From positions 186,001 to 250,000 of the forward strand of contig NZ_LHQS01000001.1 in assembly GCF_004102725.1 (NCBI RefSeq): a DNA stretch of 64,000 nt, in the 5' to 3' direction. Position numbers and translations under genes: made by a program. Shown piece after piece: positions 2,121 through 12,573 of the stretch (positions are counted from its first letter, which is position 1; every line of letters begins with the position of its first letter). The notes beneath the pieces were generated by a model. That model saw nothing but the letters and a program-made list of their open reading frames with translations. It searched no databases and had not been told where the DNA came from. The DNA comes from Methanoculleus taiwanensis. Lineage in GTDB: Archaea > Halobacteriota > Methanomicrobia > Methanomicrobiales > Methanoculleaceae.

Positions 2121-5100
2121 ATGATTTCAGTACTGCATGTTGACGACGAGCCCGCACTCCTCGATATAACCCGGCTTTTCCTCGAGAGAAATAAAGAGAT
2201 TACCGTTGACGTAAGCACATCCGCCAGAGAAGCGCTCGATTTGCTCACGACCCGCAGGTTCGACGTCATCGTGTCCGATTATGAGATGCCCCTGATGAAC
2301 GGAATAGAGTTCTTAAAGCAACTCAAAGCACAGGGCAACGACACCCCGTTCATCATCTTCACCGGAAGAGGGCGGGAGCACGTCATCATCGAAGCGCTTA
2401 ACAACGGTGCGTCGTTCTACCTCCAGAAGGGCGGCGATCCGAAGTCCCAGTTCGCCGAACTGAAGCACATGATCGAGCAGGCCGTCGAACGGAAGAGAGT
2501 GGACGAGGCGCTCAAGGCGAGCGAAGAGCGCTACCGCGCCGTCGTCGAGAGCCAGACCGAACTCATCTGCAGGTTCCACCCCGACGGAACCCTCGTCTTT
2601 GCAAACGACGCCTTCTGTCGCTACTACGGCAGGGAGAAGTGCACCGGGCTGATTGGCAGACGGTTCTTCCCGAAGATCCCCGACGAGGAGCAGGAACTCA
2701 TCAAGCGGCATTTCGCGTCCCTGACGCTCGATTCTCCGGTCGGGACCATCGAGCACCGGGTTCTTATGCCGGACGGCACGACACGGTGGCAGCAGTGGAG
2801 CGACCGGGCGCTCTTCGACGAAGAAGGGCAGATTATCGAGTTCCAATCAGTGGGACGAGATGTCACCGATCGGAAGTTCGCCGAAGAAGCTCTGAAGGAG
2901 TCGGAGACGAAGTTCAAGGTTCTCGCCGAAAAGTCACTCGTCGGCGTGTATATCATCAGGAACGGCGTCTTCACCTACGTCAACCCCCGATTTGCCCGTA
3001 TCTTTGGTTACCGGGTCGACGAGATGGTAGGGAGAATCGGGTTCGACGAACTGACCCTCCCGGACGATCTTCCCATCGTCCGGGAGAAGATACGGAAGAT
3101 CTCCGGCGAGCAGGATTATCCGCACTTCGAGTTCCGGGGAGTCCGGAAAGACGGCGAGGCGATCACCCTCGAGGTCTACGGATCGGAGACCGCTATCCAG
3201 GGGACCCAGAGGATCATCGGGACACTCCTCGACATCTCCGACCGGAAGAAGATGGAGGTCTCCTTAAAGGAGAAGGTCAACTACGTCCAGGCGCTGATGG
3301 ACACCATTCCGGCGCCGGTCTTCTACCGCAACACCGACGGCGTCTACCAGGACTGCAACCGCGCCTTCGAGGAACTCGTCGGCCTTCAGAAAGAGGCGAT
3401 CATCGGCAAGACCATCTGGGACTTCTTCCCGAAGTTCTACGCCGACCACTACAAGTACAAGGACGACCTGATCGTCGCGCACCCCCACGTCCAGCGCTAC
3501 GAGTTCGAACTCCAGAACACCCGGGGCGAGAAATACGACGTCCTCTTCTCAAAGACCGCTCTCTTCCGGGCGGACGGGAGCGTCGCCGGGATCGTCGGCG
3601 TCATCATGGACATCTCCGACCGGAAGAAGATGGAGGTCTCCTTAAAGGAGAAGGTCAACTACGTCCAGGCGCTGATGGACACCATTCCGGCGCCGGTCTT
3701 CTACCGCGACACCGACGGCGTCTACCAGGACTGCAACCGCGCCTTCGAGGAACTCGTCGGCCTTCCGAAGGAGGAGATCCTCGGCAAAACAATCCACTAC
3801 TTCTTCCCGAAGGAGTATGCCGACATCTACAAAGAGAAGGACAATCTCATCATCAGCCATCCGCATATCCAACGCTACGAGTTCGCCATCACCGATGCCC
3901 GGGGAGCCGTTCACGACGTTCTCTTCTCAAAGACCGCTCTCTTCAGGGCGGACGGGGGCGTCGGCGGTATCGTCGGTGCGATCCTCGACATCTCCGACCG
4001 GAAGAAGATGGAGGTCTCCTTAAAGGAGAAGGTCAACTACGTCCAGGCGCTGATGGACACCATTCCGGCGCCGGTCTTCTACCGCAACACCGACGGCGTC
4101 TACCAGGACTGCAACCGCGCCTTCGAGGAACTCGTCGGCCTTCAGAAAGAGGCGATCATCGGCAAGACCATCTGGGACTTCTTCCCGAAGTTCTACGCCG
4201 ACCACTACAAGTACAAGGACGACCTGATCGTCGCGCACCCCCACGTCCAGCGCTACGAGTTCGAACTCCAGAACACCCGGGGCGAGAAATATGACGTCCT
4301 CTTCTCAAAGACCGCCCTCTTCCGGGCGGACGGGAGCGTCGCCGGGATCGTCGGCGTCATCATGGATATCTCCGACCGGAAGAAGATGGAGAAGGCTCTC
4401 CGGGAGAGCGAAGAGAAGTTCCGGACGCTGGCCGACTTCACTTACGACTGGGAATCCTGGCTCGGGCCTGAAGGAAACTACCTCTACGTCTCGCCGTCTT
4501 GCGAGCGGATCACCGGGTACACCGCAGAAGCATTCCTCGCCGATCCCCACCTGACCGAGAAGATCACCTTCCCCGGAGACCGGGCGATGGTGGCGCACCA
4601 CTACAACGAGATCTGGAAGACGAGTGACGGAGTGCACCATCTGGACTTCCGGATCGTTACGCCGTGCGGCGAGACCCGCTGGATAAGCCACTACTGCCAG
4701 CCGGTCTACCGCGAGGACGGGAGCTGGCTCGGCCGCCGTGAGAACAAGCGGGACATCACCCACCGGAAGATCGTGGAAGAAGCGCTCCAGCAGGCTAACC
4801 GGAAATTAAACCTCCTCTCGAGCGTCACCCGCCACGACGTCCTCAACCAGCTCACCGCGCTTGCCGGATACCTCGAGCTTTCGAAGGATTACGTCGCCGA
4901 TCCGTTCTTCTTCGAGATGATCGAGAAGGCGGAGCTTGCTGCGGGCACCATCAGGCACCAGATCACCTTCACCAAGGATTACCAGGACATCGGTGTCCAC
5001 ACTCCGACATGGCAGAACCTGAACAGAGTGGTGGAGCAGACGGCAGCGATCCGGAGCGCCGGTGCCGAGGTTTCGATCGCGGCTGATTATGTCGGTCTCG

Positions 5101-5435
5101 AGATCTACGCCGACCCGCTCCTCCAGAAGGTCTTCTCAAATCTCCTCGATAACGCGGCGAGGCATGCCGGCACCATCAGCAGGATCACGTTCTCGTGCTC
5201 GGAATCGGAAGAGGGTCTAACGCTCTTCTGCGAGGATGACGGGGTAGGGGTTCCCGATGCGGAGAAGAGCACGATCTTCGAGCGGGGCAGGGGACGAAAC
5301 ACCGGATACGGCCTTTTCCTCGCGCAGGAGATCCTCTCCATCACCGGGCTTTCCATCCGGGAGACAGGAGTGCCCGGAGAGGGAGCCCGATTCGAGATCC
5401 ACGTCCCGCGGGGGGCGTACCGGTTCACTGCGTGA
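2121..5435 (+). CDS. Response-regulator/multi-PAS hybrid sensor histidine kinase
   Basis: 1104-residue soluble kinase with no membrane segment. A REC domain occupies residues 1-120; the likely phospho-acceptor Asp53 is in VSDYEMPLMNG and the conserved Lys103 in LQKGG. PAS domains follow at about 133-255 and 260-374, then three highly similar PAS units of 126 residues each (about 375-752), then another PAS (about 755-885). The transmitter has a His in SSVTRHDVLNQL (about residue 904) and an ATPase domain with NLLDNAARHAG, DDGVGVPD and a GYGLFLAQE box. This is the archaeal intracellular multi-PAS kinase type. It is followed after 66 bp by the permease of the partner-switching cluster, with no evident promoter between, so it probably opens that operon and may regulate or receive signals from it (inference). 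Confidence 0.9.
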   Translation: MISVLHVDDEPALLDITRLFLERNKEITVDVSTSAREALDLLTTRRFDVIVSDYEMPLMNGIEFLKQLKAQGNDTPFIIFTGRGREHVIIEALNNGASFYLQKGGDPKSQFAELKHMIEQAVERKRVDEALKASEERYRAVVESQTELICRFHPDGTLVFANDAFCRYYGREKCTGLIGRRFFPKIPDEEQELIKRHFASLTLDSPVGTIEHRVLMPDGTTRWQQWSDRALFDEEGQIIEFQSVGRDVTDRKFAEEALKESETKFKVLAEKSLVGVYIIRNGVFTYVNPRFARIFGYRVDEMVGRIGFDELTLPDDLPIVREKIRKISGEQDYPHFEFRGVRKDGEAITLEVYGSETAIQGTQRIIGTLLDISDRKKMEVSLKEKVNYVQALMDTIPAPVFYRNTDGVYQDCNRAFEELVGLQKEAIIGKTIWDFFPKFYADHYKYKDDLIVAHPHVQRYEFELQNTRGEKYDVLFSKTALFRADGSVAGIVGVIMDISDRKKMEVSLKEKVNYVQALMDTIPAPVFYRDTDGVYQDCNRAFEELVGLPKEEILGKTIHYFFPKEYADIYKEKDNLIISHPHIQRYEFAITDARGAVHDVLFSKTALFRADGGVGGIVGAILDISDRKKMEVSLKEKVNYVQALMDTIPAPVFYRNTDGVYQDCNRAFEELVGLQKEAIIGKTIWDFFPKFYADHYKYKDDLIVAHPHVQRYEFELQNTRGEKYDVLFSKTALFRADGSVAGIVGVIMDISDRKKMEKALRESEEKFRTLADFTYDWESWLGPEGNYLYVSPSCERITGYTAEAFLADPHLTEKITFPGDRAMVAHHYNEIWKTSDGVHHLDFRIVTPCGETRWISHYCQPVYREDGSWLGRRENKRDITHRKIVEEALQQANRKLNLLSSVTRHDVLNQLTALAGYLELSKDYVADPFFFEMIEKAELAAGTIRHQITFTKDYQDIGVHTPTWQNLNRVVEQTAAIRSAGAEVSIAADYVGLEIYADPLLQKVFSNLLDNAARHAGTISRITFSCSESEEGLTLFCEDDGVGVPDAEKSTIFERGRGRNTGYGLFLAQEILSITGLSIRETGVPGEGARFEIHVPRGAYRFTA
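3243..4376 (+). repeat. Three tandem 378-bp PAS-encoding repeats inside the kinase gene
   Basis: A 378-bp unit, starting near 3243, 3621 and 3999, encodes a PAS domain beginning with MEVSLKEKVNYVQALMDTIP. Units 1 and 3 encode identical 126-residue proteins and differ by only a few silent third-position changes. Unit 2 keeps the first half almost unchanged but has a different second half (for example ILGKTIHYFFPKEYADIYK). The unit boundaries are approximate. The pattern indicates recent duplication or gene conversion within the gene. Confidence 0.9.
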
Positions 5436-5501
5436 CAGGGCATCGAATGCCGGTAATCCGCCGGGAGACTGCAGACCAGGTGCATAGGAGCCGAACCACC
5501 C

Positions 5502-7214
5502 GTGTCACAGAAACCACAGAACCTCGTTTACGGAGTTGAAGACCCGCTCCCGCTTCCGACCGCACTGCTGCTCGGGCTCCAGCACGTCTTCGTGATGGCC
5601 ACGGCGTTCATCTTTCCAGTCGTCATCGTCAGGAGCTTTGGCGGGACGGCAGAGCAGGCCGTTTTCATGGTCACCATGTCCATCCTCGCGGGCGGTGTCG
5701 GGACGATCCTCCAGGCGCTCCGAAAAGGAGGCATGGGTTCGGGGTATCTCTGCCCGGCGGTCTGCGGGCCGTCGTATCTCTCCGCATCACTCCTTGCGGC
5801 GCAGACCGGGGGGCTCTCGCTCGTCTACGGCATGACGGCAGTCGCCGGTCTCTTCGAGGTCTTTTTCTCCCGGCTCATGCATCGCCTGCGCGTCCTGTTC
5901 CCCGCCGAGGTCATCGGAGTCGTCGTCGCCCTCGTCGGGATCGCCGTCATCCCGGTAGCAGTCCCGAACTTCCTCGGGATAGCACCGGGAGATAGCGTAA
6001 CCGAGGCACTCGAACTGCTCGTCGCGGGAGTCACCCTCGGAACGATGGTCGCGATAAGCGTCTGGAGCAGGGGAAAAATCCGTCTCTACTCGGTTCTTAT
6101 CGGTATCGCCTTCGGGTATATCCTCGCTGCCGCGACCGGCATCCTCGATGGGGCAGCGATCGCGAGGATCCTCGACGCACCCCTGCTCGCATTCCCCGAC
6201 CTCAGCCACCTCGGGTGGTCGTTCGATGCAGCCCTGCTCATCCCCTTCATCATCGCCGTCCTCTGCTCGTCCTTAAAGTCTATAGGCGATCTGACGACCT
6301 GCCAGAAGATCAACGACGCCGACTGGAGACGGCCGGACATGCGGAACATCGGCAGCGGTATCCTCGCGGACGGCTCTTCAGCGCTCTTTTCCGGGCTTGT
6401 CGGTGGGATGGGGCAGTCAACCTCCTCGAGCAACGTCGGCCTCTCAGTCGGCACCGGTGCCACAAGCAGGGCAATCGCCTTTGCCGCAGGCGCTCTCCTC
6501 ATCGCACTGACGTTCTTCCCGAAACTGGCATCGGTCTTCGTCATCATGCCGAGCCCCGTCATGGGAGCGGGACTTGTCTTTGTCGCCGCATTTATGATCG
6601 TCAACGGGCTGCAGATCATCATGTCCCGGATGATGGATACGCGAAAGACCTTTGTTATCGGGTTCGCGTTCATCTTCGGCCTCTCGGTCGACATCTTCCC
6701 GGAGTTCTTCATTGCTCTTCCCACATCGGTGCAACCCGTCTTCAGTTCGTCGCTCGCCCTCGGAACCGCCACAGCGCTCATTCTCAATCTCATCTTCCGG
6801 ATCGGGATCGCCCGGCGAAAGACACTGCGCCTCGAACCCGGAACCGACTTCTCCGATACTGTCTTTTCGTTCTTCGAGGCAATGGGAGGCACCTGGGGCG
6901 CTCGCAAAGAGGTGATCCAGCGCGCTGAATCGGCGGTAAACGAACTCATGGAAGCAATCGTCTTCCTGGGTCTGACCCGGGAGACAGTCCGGGCCGAGAT
7001 CACATTCGAGGAGGATTCACTCGATATCGATGTCAGGTACCCGGGAAAACCGCTTGACCTTTCACCGGGAGGAGCTCCCACCGATACCGATCTTCTCGAA
7101 GACGAAAACGCCCTTGCCAGGCTCTCTGCGTTCCTGATACGGAAGTACGCGGATGTGGTCACCACGGACGTCCGGGACGGAGAGTGCCGGATCAGGCTGC
7201 ACTTCGACCACTGA
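5502..7214 (+). CDS. NCS2 (xanthine/uracil permease family) transporter with RsbW-like C-terminal domain
   Basis: 570 residues, GTG start. Residues about 15-455 are a polytopic NCS2 nucleobase-transporter domain, with the typical opening LLLGLQHVFVMATAFIFPV and CGPSYLSASL, and later GGMGQSTSSSNVGLS. Unusually, about 110 cytoplasmic residues follow the last helix. They align by eye with RsbW/SpoIIAB-type ATPases: an N-box-like AVNELMEAIVFLGL, a G1-like DVRYPGKPLDL and a final RLSAFLIRKYADVVTTDV strand-helix pattern matching the kinase at 9045. The G2 glycine loop and several ATP-binding residues are absent, so it is probably a pseudo-kinase binding module. It lies directly before a STAS gene. 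Substrate is unknown. Transporter assignment is firm; tail assignment is inference. Confidence 0.85.
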   Translation: MSQKPQNLVYGVEDPLPLPTALLLGLQHVFVMATAFIFPVVIVRSFGGTAEQAVFMVTMSILAGGVGTILQALRKGGMGSGYLCPAVCGPSYLSASLLAAQTGGLSLVYGMTAVAGLFEVFFSRLMHRLRVLFPAEVIGVVVALVGIAVIPVAVPNFLGIAPGDSVTEALELLVAGVTLGTMVAISVWSRGKIRLYSVLIGIAFGYILAAATGILDGAAIARILDAPLLAFPDLSHLGWSFDAALLIPFIIAVLCSSLKSIGDLTTCQKINDADWRRPDMRNIGSGILADGSSALFSGLVGGMGQSTSSSNVGLSVGTGATSRAIAFAAGALLIALTFFPKLASVFVIMPSPVMGAGLVFVAAFMIVNGLQIIMSRMMDTRKTFVIGFAFIFGLSVDIFPEFFIALPTSVQPVFSSSLALGTATALILNLIFRIGIARRKTLRLEPGTDFSDTVFSFFEAMGGTWGARKEVIQRAESAVNELMEAIVFLGLTRETVRAEITFEEDSLDIDVRYPGKPLDLSPGGAPTDTDLLEDENALARLSAFLIRKYADVVTTDVRDGECRIRLHFDH

Positions 7215-7298
7215 CCGGTAAAAATGGCTTCTGCACCGGAATGTCCTGCAGTAACGAAAGTAAAGACCTATCTAGCCACAGAGCACACTAAAAGATGA

Positions 7299-7655
7299 AT
7301 GAGCGGGAATCTGGAGATCACCGAACGGCACGAGGGGGAAGTGGCGATCGTCTCCCTGAAAGGGAGGCTTGACGCCGCATCGAGCCAGGATGCCGAACAG
7401 CGGATGAACGGGCTGATCGACGCGGGCAGCAGAGCGATCCTGGTCAACCTCTCGGGTCTCGACTATATCAGCAGTTCCGGTCTGCGTGTGCTGCTTGCCT
7501 CATTAAAGCGGCTGAAGAAGACCGGCGGGAACCTCCACCTCGCGGAGCCGAAACCTGCGGTCAGAGATGTCTTCACCATGGCAGGTTTTCACCGGATCTT
7601 CACCATCCACGACGACGAAGCATCGGCACTGAACAGCTTTAGCGCGGAATTCTGA
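7299..7655 (+). CDS. STAS-domain anti-sigma-factor antagonist-like protein
   Basis: 118-residue single STAS domain of the SpoIIAA/RsbV class. It shows the family order: a beta strand GEVAIVSLKGRLDA, then AILVNLSGLDYISSSGLRVLL, then a C-terminal helix. Serines 58-60 in ISSSGL fall on the site phosphorylated in bacterial antagonists. In bacteria these proteins are switched by a serine kinase and a PP2C phosphatase and release a bound target when dephosphorylated. Both enzyme types are encoded just downstream (7687 and 9045), and a transporter with a kinase-like tail lies just upstream. No sigma factor exists in archaea, so the output must be something else, plausibly the permease or a regulator. 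Start is the ATG at 7299. Confidence 0.9.
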   Translation: MSGNLEITERHEGEVAIVSLKGRLDAASSQDAEQRMNGLIDAGSRAILVNLSGLDYISSSGLRVLLASLKRLKKTGGNLHLAEPKPAVRDVFTMAGFHRIFTIHDDEASALNSFSAEF

Positions 7656-7686
7656 ACCGGCCGTCGCCACCACCGGAAGATCCAGC

Positions 7687-9048
7687 ATGGCATCGGCACT
7701 CACCGAGCTCTCCTTCATCCTCCTCCAGATGATCTGCGTCATCGTGGTGGTCGCCTACCTGATCACCAGGAGCGGGGCATTCACCGAGATCCTCGACAAG
7801 ACCTTCACCTGGAAGAATCAAGCGATTCTTATCCTTGTTTTCGGCGCCATCTCGATATACGGGACTGAGAGCGGTGTTGCGATCATGGGCGCCGTCATCA
7901 ACGTCCGCGACCTCGGTCCGATGGTCGGCGGGCTCGCCGCCGGGCCAATCGTCGGTCTCGGCGCCGGCCTTATCGGGGCTGCGTATCGCGCAACACTTGG
8001 TGGATTTACGGTCGTCCCCTGCGTAATTGCCACAATTCTCGCCGGAATCTTCGGCGGCACGATATATCTCCTGAATAATCGCAATTTTATCGGAGCACAG
8101 GGTGCCGTCCTCTTTGCCGTGGGGATGGAAGCACTCCACATGGGGCTTGTCCTCGTCATCTGCCGGCCATTCGAACAGGCTTGGAGTATCGTCGGGCAGG
8201 TAGCCTTCCCGATGATCCTCGCCAACGCCGCCGGAGTCTTCATCTTCGCCTTCATCATCGGCAACCTGATCACCGAACGGCAGACGAAGGCGGAACGGGA
8301 TGCGTACTTCTCCGAGCTCGAGCGGAAGCGCGCCGAGCTGCAGATCGCCCACGATATCCAGATGAGTTTTCTGCCCGAGAAACTCCCCCGCGTACCCGCG
8401 TACGACCTTGCCGCAATGAGCCTTCCGGCAAAAGAGGTCGGCGGAGACTTCTACGATGCCATCCCGCTCCCCGACGGGCGGCTCGGGATTGTTATGGCGG
8501 ACGTCTCAGGGAAGGGTGTCCCCGCCGCCCTCTTCATGGCGCTCTCGCGGACGGTCGTGCGTGCCCACGCCCGGCACAGCGGGGCAAAGGACGCCATTCA
8601 GGATGCGAATATCCTCATCGCGGAGGATTCAAAGTCAGGGATGTTCGTCACGCTCTTCTACGGGGTCGTCGACGCGGCACGGCTGACGATGACCTACGTC
8701 AACGCCGGACACAACCCCCCCCTGCTCTTCCGGGACGGTGAACCCCGGGAATTGAAAGCGACCGGGATCATCCTCGGGGTTATGGAGGACGCCGAGTACG
8801 AGGAGCAGACGGTCGATCTTCGAGCCGGGGATCTGCTGCTCCTCTACACCGACGGCGTAACCGAGGCTATAGACCCGGACGATAAGCAGTTCGGGGAAGA
8901 ACGGCTGATCGCCACCGTGCAGGAGTGCCGGCACCTCCCTTCAAGCGAGATCGTCGAACGGATACAACAGGCGGTTTTCGCCTTCTGCGGACGCGAACCG
9001 CAGTTCGACGACCTGACGCTGATGGTGCTGAAGGTGAGCGGCCCATGA
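7687..9048 (+). CDS. 5TM (LytS-type) membrane protein with SpoIIE/RsbU PP2C phosphatase domain
   Basis: 453 residues. The first 195 form a 5TMR-LYT sensor with the signature INVRDLGPMVGGLAAGP and GLGAGLIGAAYR. A helical linker (about 196-225) contains AERDAYFSELERKRAEL. Residues about 225-453 are a PP2C-type serine phosphatase with metal-binding motifs GGDFYDA, ADVSGKGVPAALFM and the final DDLTLMVLK. In bacteria such RsbU-type phosphatases dephosphorylate STAS antagonists; the STAS protein at 7299 is the obvious substrate. The membrane sensor presumably controls activity in response to an unknown ligand. The stop codon overlaps the next gene's start (ATGA), indicating translational coupling. 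The same 5TM sensor type is found twice in the Nramp fusion at 27911-30502. Confidence 0.92.
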   Translation: MASALTELSFILLQMICVIVVVAYLITRSGAFTEILDKTFTWKNQAILILVFGAISIYGTESGVAIMGAVINVRDLGPMVGGLAAGPIVGLGAGLIGAAYRATLGGFTVVPCVIATILAGIFGGTIYLLNNRNFIGAQGAVLFAVGMEALHMGLVLVICRPFEQAWSIVGQVAFPMILANAAGVFIFAFIIGNLITERQTKAERDAYFSELERKRAELQIAHDIQMSFLPEKLPRVPAYDLAAMSLPAKEVGGDFYDAIPLPDGRLGIVMADVSGKGVPAALFMALSRTVVRAHARHSGAKDAIQDANILIAEDSKSGMFVTLFYGVVDAARLTMTYVNAGHNPPLLFRDGEPRELKATGIILGVMEDAEYEEQTVDLRAGDLLLLYTDGVTEAIDPDDKQFGEERLIATVQECRHLPSSEIVERIQQAVFAFCGREPQFDDLTLMVLKVSGP

Positions 9049-9473
9049 CGCTCTCCGCACGGCTCACCGTCCCGGCAGACCTCGAGAACCTCTCGGTGAT
9101 CGCCGGGTTCCTCGAAGAGACCCTGGAGGAGGCGGGGTGCTCCGCCGAGACGCTCTTTGCCGTGCAGCTCGCGGTCGACGAGGCCTGCAGCAACACGATT
9201 CTGTACGGTTACCCCGGAGGAGAGAGGGGAGCAATCACGATCACCTGCGAAGTAGATGCGGATGAGGTCAGGGTAATGCTCGCCGATGACGGGCGGCCGT
9301 TCAACCCGCTCAACGCCCGCGAACCCGACCTGACCGCCGGACTTGAGGAGCGGAAGATCGGCGGACTCGGCGTTCACTTCATCAAAAGCGTCATGGACAG
9401 CGTCACGTACGCATATTCGGAAGAAAAGAACGTACTTCTGCTCGTAAAACGGGAGTCCACGCCGGGCAGGTGA
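9045..9473 (+). CDS. RsbW/SpoIIAB-like serine/threonine protein kinase (GHKL ATPase)
   Basis: 142 residues from the ATG at 9045, which overlaps the phosphatase stop codon by four bases. It is a HATPase_c_2 domain with an intact N box (AVDEACSNTILYGY), G1 box (LADDGRPFNPLN) and a glycine loop (EERKIGGLGVHFIKSVMDSV). Bacterial members phosphorylate STAS antagonists and bind target proteins. Its place after the STAS and phosphatase genes completes the kinase/antagonist/phosphatase trio. An upstream in-frame extension to 8925 exists but lies entirely inside the phosphatase gene, so it was rejected. The target protein is not identifiable, since archaea lack sigma factors. Confidence 0.9.
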   Translation: MTLSARLTVPADLENLSVIAGFLEETLEEAGCSAETLFAVQLAVDEACSNTILYGYPGGERGAITITCEVDADEVRVMLADDGRPFNPLNAREPDLTAGLEERKIGGLGVHFIKSVMDSVTYAYSEEKNVLLLVKRESTPGR

Positions 9474-9479
9474 CCCGTA

Positions 9480-10961
9480 TCATACAGGCGCAGGTTTCAG
9501 CCGCACCAGAATTGCGGTACCTGCCCCCGTGTCGCCCGGAACCCTGTTCTCCGCCCGTATATCCCCGTCGTAGCGCTCCACGAGCATTCTGCTGATGTAG
9601 AGGCCCAGGCCGCTGCCCGGCTCCCTGCTCTCGCCCCGCTGGAAGCGATTGAAGACCGCGTCTTTCAGGGCATCGGGGATACCGGGGCCGGTATCCCCGA
9701 CAACGACGGTGACCTCGCCGTCCCGCTCCTCAACACCGATGGTGATAGCGACGTCTGTCCCGCCGAACTTGAGGGCGTTTCCGATGAGGTTTCCAAAGAC
9801 CTCCGGAAGGAGATCGTCCGCCCAGACAGTCACTGCCGTGCCCGTATACCGGACATGCGCACCGGGATAGTGACCGATCGCGGTTCGTATCGCGGCATCG
9901 AGGTTCACCGGCCGGAGCCTGGCCTCCGGGTCACGGAGGGAGCGGAGCCGGCTGACTCCGGCGATGATAGCCGAGCTCTGTTCAATCCCCACACGAACGC
10001 GCCGGACATACTCCCGCTCCGCATCGCCGGCGAGCTCCTCGAGCACCTCCGTATACCCGAGGGCAACGGCATTGGCGTTATTGATATCGTGGGTCATGAG
10101 GTCGAGGTAGAGGTTCGCCTCCCGGGATGCCGCTTCCAGCCGTTCCTGGAGCATGGCACGAGAGATCACACCGCCAACCTCCTCGCCGATCGCTTCGAGC
10201 GTGCTCTTTTCAAGGTCGGTGAACCGGTGGAAACTGCTGCTTGCAATATGGATCGACCCGATCACCCGCCCGCCGACGGTGACCGGAATGCCCGCGAGCG
10301 AGAAGACCCCGAGTTCGCCGGACTCGTGGGAGACGTTGAGGTACTTCTCGGCGTAGCAGGGCCGCCCTTCGAGGAAGACCTCGCGGTAGTGGGGGGTGCA
10401 GATATCGACCGTGAGCACATCGGGGAAGTAGAGGTCGTAAAGACCGAAGAATGCCTTCAGATCCGCACGCTTGAACCGCGGATCCACAAGGTATACAGCG
10501 CCCGCATCGAAGTCCATCAGCTCGACGGTCTGCTGCAGCACCGTCTGCAGGACCTCCCCCGACGCCACCGGCGAGGCGCTCGCACGCATGATCCGGTTGA
10601 TAACACCGATCCGCCGGTTGCAGGAGTGGAGTTCCTCCTCCACCACGGCAGCGGGGCCTGTTTCCGTAACGGTAAGAAGGATGTGCTCCCCCTGCCCGTC
10701 CCTGGTCACGGGGAGAAGACGACTCTCGACCGCGAAGCTGCGCAGGTCTCCCGCTCTACCTCTCCAGGCAGCGGTACGATACCCCTCCCGGAGATCGCCT
10801 TCGGAGAGTGCCCTGACCGCCTCGTCCCTATCCTCCGGAAAGAGCAGATTCAGGGCGGGGTTTGTATAGACCGGCCGGCCGGCTCCGTCAAGAACCAGCA
10901 AAGGAACGGTGAGTCTCGCGAGAGCTTCCGCAGGGTCGAACGGCAGTGTCGGATCGGTCAT
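9480..10961 (-). CDS. PAS-GAF sensor histidine kinase
   Basis: 493-residue cytoplasmic kinase convergent with the partner-switching operon (6-bp gap). A PAS domain (about 10-125) is followed by a GAF domain (about 150-285). The phosphorylated His is probably in LMTHDINNANAVALGYTEV (about residue 290), an archaeal-type variant. The C-terminal ATPase has EVFGNLIGNALKFGG, GDTGPGIPDALKD and a GSGLGLYISRMLV box. No response regulator is adjacent; REC domains occur in this window only in the kinase at 2121. GAF suggests binding of a small molecule, but no ligand-specific residues were recognised. Orientation separates it from the operon to its left, so functional linkage is uncertain. Confidence 0.9.
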   Translation of the reverse strand: MTDPTLPFDPAEALARLTVPLLVLDGAGRPVYTNPALNLLFPEDRDEAVRALSEGDLREGYRTAAWRGRAGDLRSFAVESRLLPVTRDGQGEHILLTVTETGPAAVVEEELHSCNRRIGVINRIMRASASPVASGEVLQTVLQQTVELMDFDAGAVYLVDPRFKRADLKAFFGLYDLYFPDVLTVDICTPHYREVFLEGRPCYAEKYLNVSHESGELGVFSLAGIPVTVGGRVIGSIHIASSSFHRFTDLEKSTLEAIGEEVGGVISRAMLQERLEAASREANLYLDLMTHDINNANAVALGYTEVLEELAGDAEREYVRRVRVGIEQSSAIIAGVSRLRSLRDPEARLRPVNLDAAIRTAIGHYPGAHVRYTGTAVTVWADDLLPEVFGNLIGNALKFGGTDVAITIGVEERDGEVTVVVGDTGPGIPDALKDAVFNRFQRGESREPGSGLGLYISRMLVERYDGDIRAENRVPGDTGAGTAILVRLKPAPV

Positions 10962-11119: not shown

Positions 11120-11749
11120 ATGCAGATCAGAGGTATCGTACTCATCGCCTGCATCCTGATCGCCGCCACGGCGTTTGCAGGATGCACGGGAACCGTGCAG
11201 CAGCCGGCCGAAACGCCGACGGCGACGCCCACACCCGAACCGACCACCGCGGCGCCCACGCCGACACCGGAGCCGGAGCCCTACCCGGACGCTCTCGCCG
11301 TGGACGAGTTCTACCACTACGGCACGAACGAGACCGGACGCGAGGTCACCGTCGATCGCTATATGCTGCAGGACTCATACCGGATTCACCACCCCGACTG
11401 GGGGATGCGTGAGACGGTCGTATCGCCCGCCGCCGGAAACCAGTTCCTCTTCGTCTACCTGAAAGTGAAGCATGCAGGTACCGCAAAGGAGCTCTACACA
11501 CCGTATCCAGGCAGCATCTACGCCGTTGCCGACGGTGTCTCCTACTCCCATCGCGCTGACCGTGCCGAGTCCGTCACCACGGTGCTGGACGCCCGCGGGA
11601 TAGAGGATTACACGTTCCAGAAGATCTACAAGACGCAGACCATCGACGGATTCCTGATCTATGAGATTCCGGCATCGGTGACTGCCGGGGACATATACAT
11701 CGCCATGAACCTCGGCAACGACGAGGTGGCGGCCTTCGACCTCGCCTAG
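11120..11749 (+). CDS. Secreted lipoprotein, DUF4352-like
   Basis: 209 residues from the ATG at 11120; a TTG three codons earlier is less likely. The N-terminus is a lipoprotein signal peptide with hydrophobic core GIVLIACILIAATAFAG and lipobox AGCTG. A Thr/Pro-rich spacer with repeated PTPTPEP-like units (about 33-60) follows, probably O-glycosylated and spanning the S-layer. The remaining 145 residues form an all-beta domain like those of DUF4352/immunoglobulin-like surface lipoproteins (FLFVYLKVKHAGT...LYTPYPGSIYAVADG). Function is unknown. Its 3' end overlaps the converging gene at 11746 by four bases. Confidence 0.75.
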   Translation: MQIRGIVLIACILIAATAFAGCTGTVQQPAETPTATPTPEPTTAAPTPTPEPEPYPDALAVDEFYHYGTNETGREVTVDRYMLQDSYRIHHPDWGMRETVVSPAAGNQFLFVYLKVKHAGTAKELYTPYPGSIYAVADGVSYSHRADRAESVTTVLDARGIEDYTFQKIYKTQTIDGFLIYEIPASVTAGDIYIAMNLGNDEVAAFDLA

Positions 11750-12573
11750 GCGAGGGGCGAGTCCAGAGCCACCGGAAGATCCTCTTTTTTCAGCACCACT
11801 ACCGCCGACTCCTCCAGCATCAGGTTCACGCATTCGTGCCGCCCTGCCATCCGGAAGTCGGTTCGAAGGACGATTACCGGTTTTCCGAGCGCATAGGCGT
11901 ATCCCATCTCCCAGGCTGTTCCGGAATCCGCATCAGCACCGTCACAGACCGCGACGACGATGTCGGCCTCTCGGAGCGCCCGGACATGCCGGTCGAAGAT
12001 GGCGCGGTGCTCTTCCCTGTCCCGGCAGGAGCTGTTATCGCCAACCTCCTGCGGGAGGTAGACGTCGAAGAGGTGCCGGGTGAGGAGATCGTAGAGCACC
12101 AGGTTGTAGGCCAGCTCGGCTTCGGTGAAGAGCGGGCCTGCGAGGTAGATCCGGTGGCGGGCGAAGGTCTTCACGTCAAATGCACGGATATCGGAAAACC
12201 GTGCCAGAAACGCACCGCGTCCAGGCTGTTTTTCCGATGAGTAGTAGGTGGCGGTCACCCCGCAGGCCGGCGACGAGTCCACACCGACGATGCAGAGCGG
12301 TTCTCCCCGCTCGTGGACGATTTTCCTGACCTGTTCTGCAAGGTCGTCCAGGAGCGCCTCGAACGCCGGTGTCGCGAGGCGATCGAGGTACGACCCCGGG
12401 GAGCGATCGGTACCGAGGTAGATCGACTCCGGGCAGGGAAGGGCGACGACCTCGATACCGAACTTCCTGCACCGCTCAAGAGCGCGTGAAAACCACTGCT
12501 TATCCTCTTCGGTCGTGATGCCCCGGGCACGGCAGGCCGGGTTTAGAATACAGGGGCTGACAAGCACGTACAT
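11746..12573 (-). CDS. DUF523/TudS-like domain fused to nucleoside 2-deoxyribosyltransferase-like domain
   Basis: 275 residues. The N-terminal half begins VSPCILNPACRARG, has a later CPE motif and CIVGVDSSPACG. This cysteine pattern resembles DUF523/TudS proteins, some of which are thiouracil desulfidases with an Fe-S cluster. The C-terminal half (about 140-275) is a nucleoside 2-deoxyribosyltransferase-like Rossmann domain: IYLAGPLFTEAE, an ADIVVAVCDGADADSGTAWEMG segment with the catalytic-type Glu, and YALGKPVIVLRTD. The joined domains suggest a nucleobase or nucleoside salvage or cleaning reaction, for example on thiolated bases, but that is inference. Neighbours give no further clue. Confidence 0.75.
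   Translation of the reverse strand: MYVLVSPCILNPACRARGITTEEDKQWFSRALERCRKFGIEVVALPCPESIYLGTDRSPGSYLDRLATPAFEALLDDLAEQVRKIVHERGEPLCIVGVDSSPACGVTATYYSSEKQPGRGAFLARFSDIRAFDVKTFARHRIYLAGPLFTEAELAYNLVLYDLLTRHLFDVYLPQEVGDNSSCRDREEHRAIFDRHVRALREADIVVAVCDGADADSGTAWEMGYAYALGKPVIVLRTDFRMAGRHECVNLMLEESAVVVLKKEDLPVALDSPLA

Follow-up and report, generated by a model that had tools for sequence, protein, structure and literature searches.

A partner-switching trio linked to an NCS2-fold permease with a degenerate RsbW-like tail in the archaeon Methanoculleus taiwanensis

We analyzed a 64,000-nucleotide window of the Methanoculleus taiwanensis genome (assembly GCF_004102725.1, contig NZ_LHQS01000001.1, positions 186,001 to 250,000 of the forward strand), in which a compact gene cassette specifies four proteins: an NCS2-fold permease whose C-terminal tail resembles RsbW, a STAS protein, a phosphatase of the 5TM-SpoIIE type, and an RsbW-type kinase. 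Profiles and motifs place all four proteins at 5502-9473, as the initial annotation of this DNA had claimed. Our favored reading, held with a little more confidence than doubt, is that the cassette is a partner-switching module with a transporter instead of a sigma factor as its output, in which the dead-kinase tail of the permease docks the unphosphorylated STAS protein. Judged at the sequence level, the cassette is not a chance arrangement, because its catalytic motifs are intact and its linkage recurs across lineages. The features of the cassette are as follows, with domains assigned by Pfam and NCBIfam profiles.

5502-6791, plus strand: NCS2-fold transport domain of the permease, residues 1-430 (Pfam, PDB alignment, AlphaFold2 model)
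6792-7211, plus strand: RsbW/SpoIIAB-like C-terminal domain of the permease, residues 431-570; candidate STAS-docking pseudo-kinase (profile, fold)
7299-7655, plus strand: STAS-only protein of the SpoIIAA/RsbV type (Pfam/NCBIfam)
7687-9048, plus strand: membrane phosphatase with a 5TM-5TMR_LYT sensor (about 7780-8262) and a SpoIIE PP2C domain (about 8470-9036) (Pfam)
9045-9473, plus strand: RsbW/SpoIIAB-type Ser kinase (HATPase_c_2, motifs)

The permease and its RsbW-like tail

The tail was unseen in the Pfam scan of the full-length permease. Taken alone, residues 431-570 matched HATPase_c_2 with an E value of 4e-4, below the curated cut-off. A profile-profile comparison with the RsbW proteins of the module gave a probability of 95.9 and an E value of 6e-9 over 127 columns, and two RsbWs from other archaea matched the tail by BLAST (E values of 2.5e-7 and 1e-6). 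The AlphaFold2 model of the tail had a pLDDT of 92.9, and its 20 best PDB matches were all SpoIIAB, RsbW, UsfX/SigF-complex (anti-sigma), or Leptospira LvrC chains. Profile, BLAST, and fold all agree on the RsbW-like tail that had been proposed initially.

The tail has the GHKL fold of the RsbW/SpoIIAB branch and lacks its nucleotide-binding residues. Of 75 tails, 70 retain the N-box Glu and none the Mg-binding Asn; the adenine-binding Asp is missing from all 75 (Tyr takes its place in 73), and GGLG is likewise lost. The stretches WGARxEVI, FDEFNLD, and HFxH are conserved, and residues W465, E481, Y513, G515, and H570 are near-invariant. As an RsbW homolog, the tail has most likely lost catalysis and yet is conserved. 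Since the nucleotide-binding residues are lost, it is likely a target or docking domain and not a further kinase. A second active kinase, also in modules without an RsbW in the operon, was rejected on the motifs. Fragments matching only the last 28 to 37 residues of the tail were found at G014:C1:51003-51113 and G025:C57:21443-21529 (Gnnn denotes genomes, G000 being the source genome and G001 its sister species); they are probably remnants of lost permease genes.

The complete permease gene (5502-7214) matched Xan_ur_permease (PF00860; E value of 3e-54), and profile and fold together place the protein in the NCS2 family. The AlphaFold2 model of the transport domain best matched the NCS2 proteins UapA, SVCT1, and UraA, followed by SLC26. 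In the PDB alignment, Lys259 (6276-6278) occupies the position of the substrate-binding TM8 Glu of UapA/UraA, and Lys stands there in 80 of 80 relatives, tailless ones included. Ser308 (6423-6425) occupies the position of the UapA TM10 Gln, with Ser in 77 of the 80. Neither the nucleobase-binding TM8 Glu nor the TM10 Gln/Glu is present in the permease. Because the TM8 Glu is replaced by Lys throughout, a classic nucleobase is unlikely to be the substrate; an anion would be a guess. The label "nucleobase-type" in the initial annotation is therefore doubtful, and nucleobase transport as the default is weakened by both residues.

The trio and its linkage to the permease

The STAS protein matched Pfam STAS (E value of 9e-23) and scored above the cut-off for ant_ant_sig (NCBIfam/Pfam). 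Its candidate phospho-acceptor is Ser59 (7473-7475) in YISSSGLR, and a Ser is kept at this position in 18 of 18 module STAS proteins. In the phosphatase, which matched 5TM-5TMR_LYT (E value of 3e-43) and SpoIIE (E value of 1e-53) in Pfam, the alignment showed the acidic motifs GGDFYD, ADVSGKG, TDG, and FDD to be intact, including the metal-binding Asp residues. The kinase matched HATPase_c_2 (Pfam; E value of 4e-31) with an intact N-box (DEACSN), G1 (DDG), and G2 (GGLG). Nucleotide-binding residues were kept in all 16 stand-alone module RsbWs that were checked, the G of DxG varying in a few. With the STAS Ser, the RsbW N-box/DxG/GGLG, and the SpoIIE acidic motifs all present, the trio is, as far as motifs can tell, complete and catalytically plausible, which upholds the complete partner-switching trio described initially.

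Such a trio is not new for archaea. A SpoIIAA/AB/E-type trio was described in Methanomicrobiales and not found outside the order by Anderson et al. in 2009 (PMC2686161), who noted that its targets could not be determined from the genome and that sigma factors are not known from archaea. The present scans extend its range to Methanotrichaceae and Methanophagales-type genomes. Relatives of the 5TM-SpoIIE protein at E values of ≤1e-20 occurred in 98 of 394 genomes of the phylum, and at the majority of the 30 best loci 5TM-SpoIIE was flanked by STAS and RsbW. The permease matched at 1e-60 in 25 of the 394 genomes, some of these matches being tailless; tailed permeases are thus rarer than the trio.

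Conserved linkage between permease and trio in other genomes, which had been set beforehand as a check, was found in archaea and in many bacteria. Scanning contigs with the permease alignment yielded 80 named loci (Lnnn denotes fetched loci), many of them from metagenome-assembled genomes, whose names may mislead for single contigs. Archaeal relatives came from Methanoculleus, Methanothrix/Methanosaeta, Methanophagales, Methanoregula, and Methanospirillum. Bacterial ones included Syntrophales/Smithellaceae, Desulfobacteraceae, Cloacimonadota, Armatimonadota, Bacteroidales, Chloroflexi, and Formimonas warabiya, whose genome is complete. At least one of STAS, SpoIIE, and RsbW lay within 3 kb at 38 of 67 tailed loci, and STAS and SpoIIE were both there at 31. 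Within 1.5 kb, a SpoIIE gene was present at 10 of 19 tailed archaeal loci; of 30 NCS2 loci serving as controls, 0 had any module gene (Fisher 1.4e-5 with 29 of the controls, the tail fragment L015 being excluded). The controls (L007-L030 and L127-L132) were mostly canonical NCS2 permeases, a few clipped by contig ends, and L127-L132 were six tailless relatives. In family f22, a high-scoring 5TM-SpoIIE occurred in four genomes (G208, G250, G308, and G355), and exactly these four had a tailed permease.

Linkage was kept through about ten gene orders, including the following, in which the tailed NCS2 permease is written NCS2t:

NCS2t-STAS-SpoIIE-RsbW: window, L152, L158 (also the order of the sister species)
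STAS-SpoIIE-RsbW-NCS2t: L154, L155, L157
Convergent arrangement: L156
STAS-SpoIIE-NCS2t: L172, L175, L176, L191, L218
SpoIIE-STAS-NCS2t: L167-L169, L178
NCS2t-[SpoIIE-RsbW fusion]-STAS: L166, L170, L193, L194, L205

Orders other than that of the window were seen in Methanothrix, other Methanomicrobiales, many bacteria, and f10 (Methanophagales-type) genomes (L088), and the SpoIIE-RsbW fusion of L166 also has Cache and HAMP domains. The degenerate-kinase tail and the pairing recur in many gene orders, which makes the transporter the leading candidate to date for the target of the switch. The cassette of several archaea comes without RsbW. Three cassettes (L139, L140, and L141) contain permease, STAS, and SpoIIE but no RsbW, and in two more (L142 and L143) SpoIIE and the permease alone were recognized. 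The tails of all five are equally degenerate, and RsbW is encoded elsewhere in those genomes, as would be expected for L139-L141 if the tail is a client and not a kinase. A role as stand-in kinase where the operon lacks RsbW was rejected, each such genome searched having RsbW elsewhere.

On the permease tree, linkage changes at least 14 times and the tail once, in a quick tree with some long branches. Methanothrix/Methanosaeta permeases (L172, L175, L176, L180-L182, L191, and L218) group with those of Syntrophales/Smithellaceae (L167-L169 and L178), a pattern that suggests transfer between syntroph and methanogen partner.

Candidate mechanism and alternatives

In the proposed mechanism, RsbW would phosphorylate Ser59 of STAS. 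The SpoIIE phosphatase, activated through its 5TM domain by a ligand or membrane signal, would dephosphorylate STAS. Much as RsbV binds RsbW, the unphosphorylated STAS would then dock on the dead, RsbW-like permease tail; docking would change the transport activity or stability of the permease, and phosphorylation would release STAS. We infer the enzyme activities, the binding of STAS to the tail, which way control runs, and any effect on transport. Whether this extends to a widespread interdomain module, in which a pseudo-kinase tail on a Lys-type NCS2-fold transporter is a direct STAS client and Ser phosphorylation gates transport without transcription, as one of the outputs of the sigma-less SpoII-type switch in archaea, is in our judgment evenly balanced.

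Several observations weigh against the transporter as target. Complete trios without a tailed permease are common among relatives, so the permease is not the sole output and other outputs must exist; it is at most one of several. The initial proposal of the permease as output therefore stands in that linkage recurs and the degenerate tail is a candidate client, and it falls as a sole output. No module gene lay within 3 kb of 29 of the 67 tailed permeases, and the contrast with tailless relatives was modest for any module gene (38/67 versus 2/11; P = 0.02) and not significant for STAS and SpoIIE together (31/67 versus 2/11; P = 0.11), the tailless loci being few. Tail divergence correlated with that of STAS at r = 0.83, compared with 0.65 to 0.75 for transporter segments, but the bootstrap interval of the excess includes zero, and this coevolution is suggestive at most as proof of contact. 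Finally, the loss of ATP binding by the tail is judged from motifs alone.

Proteins of about 420 to 440 amino acids with an N-terminal STAS domain and a remainder without an assigned domain (L101, 6547-7845; L102, 10648-11913; L109, 5722-7035) adjoin the trio in family f4 and HAMP-SpoIIE in the source genome. They are possible other outputs of the switch.

The existence of further outputs also leaves room for the permease as a sensor, or transceptor, whose substrate occupancy alters the tail; the tail would then sequester or release STAS and report the solute to the switch, with the output elsewhere. The unusual substrate-site residues Lys259 and Ser308 and the additional STAS and SpoIIE genes of the source genome fit this alternative. 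We nevertheless consider it unlikely, as the phosphatase 5TM domain (Cache-HAMP in L166) already resembles a sensory input and no shared output gene was seen in the examined neighborhoods.

It should be noted that RsbW and SpoIIAB act as dimers and that GHKL proteins of this type dimerize. The tail, a full-length RsbW homolog, might accordingly bind RsbW itself, tethering the kinase at the membrane or inhibiting it, with STAS not being a direct partner. The probability of this pairing appears rather low, given that L139-L141 and L167-L169 have STAS and SpoIIE next to the permease and no RsbW there and that STAS and tail distances correlate well.

Least probable of all is that the genes merely cotravel as a mobile cluster without mutual action of permease and switch: interdomain transfer is clear, with Methanothrix copies nested with Syntrophales, and the unlinked tailed permeases and the tail fragments of G014 and G025 agree with it, whereas linkage survives about ten gene orders and is absent from all 30 control loci, the tail is under constraint at its near-invariant residues, and 5TM-SpoIIE and tailed permease coincide, four and four, in the f22 genomes. 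Neighbors of unlinked permeases, considered as clues to the substrate, include acetyl-CoA hydrolase, TctA, chaperonin, and LRR genes, among others.

Neighboring genes and comparison with known systems

Two histidine kinase genes flank the cassette:

2121-5435, plus strand: REC-(PAS)6-HATPase histidine kinase, probably not core (Pfam/NCBIfam)
9480-10961, minus strand: GAF-HATPase histidine kinase, convergent neighbor (Pfam)

Together with the first of these, the cassette forms five open reading frames on the plus strand (2121-5435, 5502-7214, 7299-7655, 7687-9048, and 9045-9473), at the coordinates of the initial annotation. The intergenic gaps across 2121-9473 are 66, 84, and 31 bp, followed by a 4-bp ATGA overlap of the SpoIIE stop codon with RsbW. 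The same-strand, compact block was thus described correctly, except that 84 bp and not 66 bp is the largest gap. The window gave no matches in Rfam and tRNA scans.

The multi-PAS kinase had been counted as a cassette member. Its domains (REC, about six PAS, and HATPase_c) put it in the histidine kinase class and not among Ser kinases, and among the loci examined it adjoins the cassette only in the sister species, for which reason it was rejected as a core part. At 3213-4268 it contains three tandem 378-bp PAS units, copies 1 and 3 being 98% identical and copy 2 86%; these near-identical units point to a recent internal duplication. Methanoculleus-type relatives share the divergent upstream PAS kinase (65% identical); there the trio comes after it, with neither permease nor multi-PAS gene, so that permease and multi-PAS kinase were either inserted here or lost there. 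In the relatives L059-L066, which lack the permease, the trio is directly followed by an orthologue of the nucleoside 2-deoxyribosyltransferase-type gene found at 11746-12573 (minus strand) in the window.

A second tailed NCS2 permease (61%) is encoded in the source genome at G000:C2:1092730-1094430 (L031), with no trio adjoining. It lies beside a PAS histidine kinase, and orthologous pairs occur in G001 and G016. The GAF-HATPase protein is related to this kinase in the histidine kinase part (52%).

The trio itself was already known, and the permease link is the new part. Our search of the open-access literature returned no report tying an NCS2 or xanthine permease to RsbW or anti-sigma proteins. 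If the favored reading is true, transporter control joins the outputs of partner switching, and the tailed transporter subfamily gives the archaeal switch a concrete client that is testable with purified proteins.

The SpoIIAA/SpoIIAB/SpoIIE and RsbV/RsbW/RsbU switches of Bacillus use the same three proteins, with motifs intact, and the archaeal trio is the one described in 2009 (PMC2686161); the permease link is absent from that account. Unlike the Bacillus switches, the archaeal module has no known sigma factor, although no genome scan aimed at one was made, and is linked to a transporter bearing a dead RsbW domain. Other partner switches, whose outputs are non-sigma or unknown (Bordetella Btr, Vibrio SypA/SypE, Rhodobacter RbaV, and Nostoc HmpV), share the STAS/kinase/phosphatase core, and the part of the review cited here (PMC8256260) names no membrane transporter as a client. 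Relative to the NCS2 permeases UraA, UapA, and PbuX, the fold, PF00860, and, in most relatives, the Asn of the TM10 motif are shared; in contrast to UapA, the Glu of TM8 "ACECIGD" is Lys in 80 of 80, the Gln of "AQNN" is Ser in most, and a tail of 140 amino acids is added. Transporters of the SLC26/SulP type with a C-terminal STAS domain have a related 7+7 TM fold and, like the permease, a cytoplasmic tail from the STAS/anti-sigma world. In the permease, however, the tail is the RsbW-like, presumed partner of STAS and STAS is a separate protein, which would make the arrangement a mirror image of the SLC26-STAS design.

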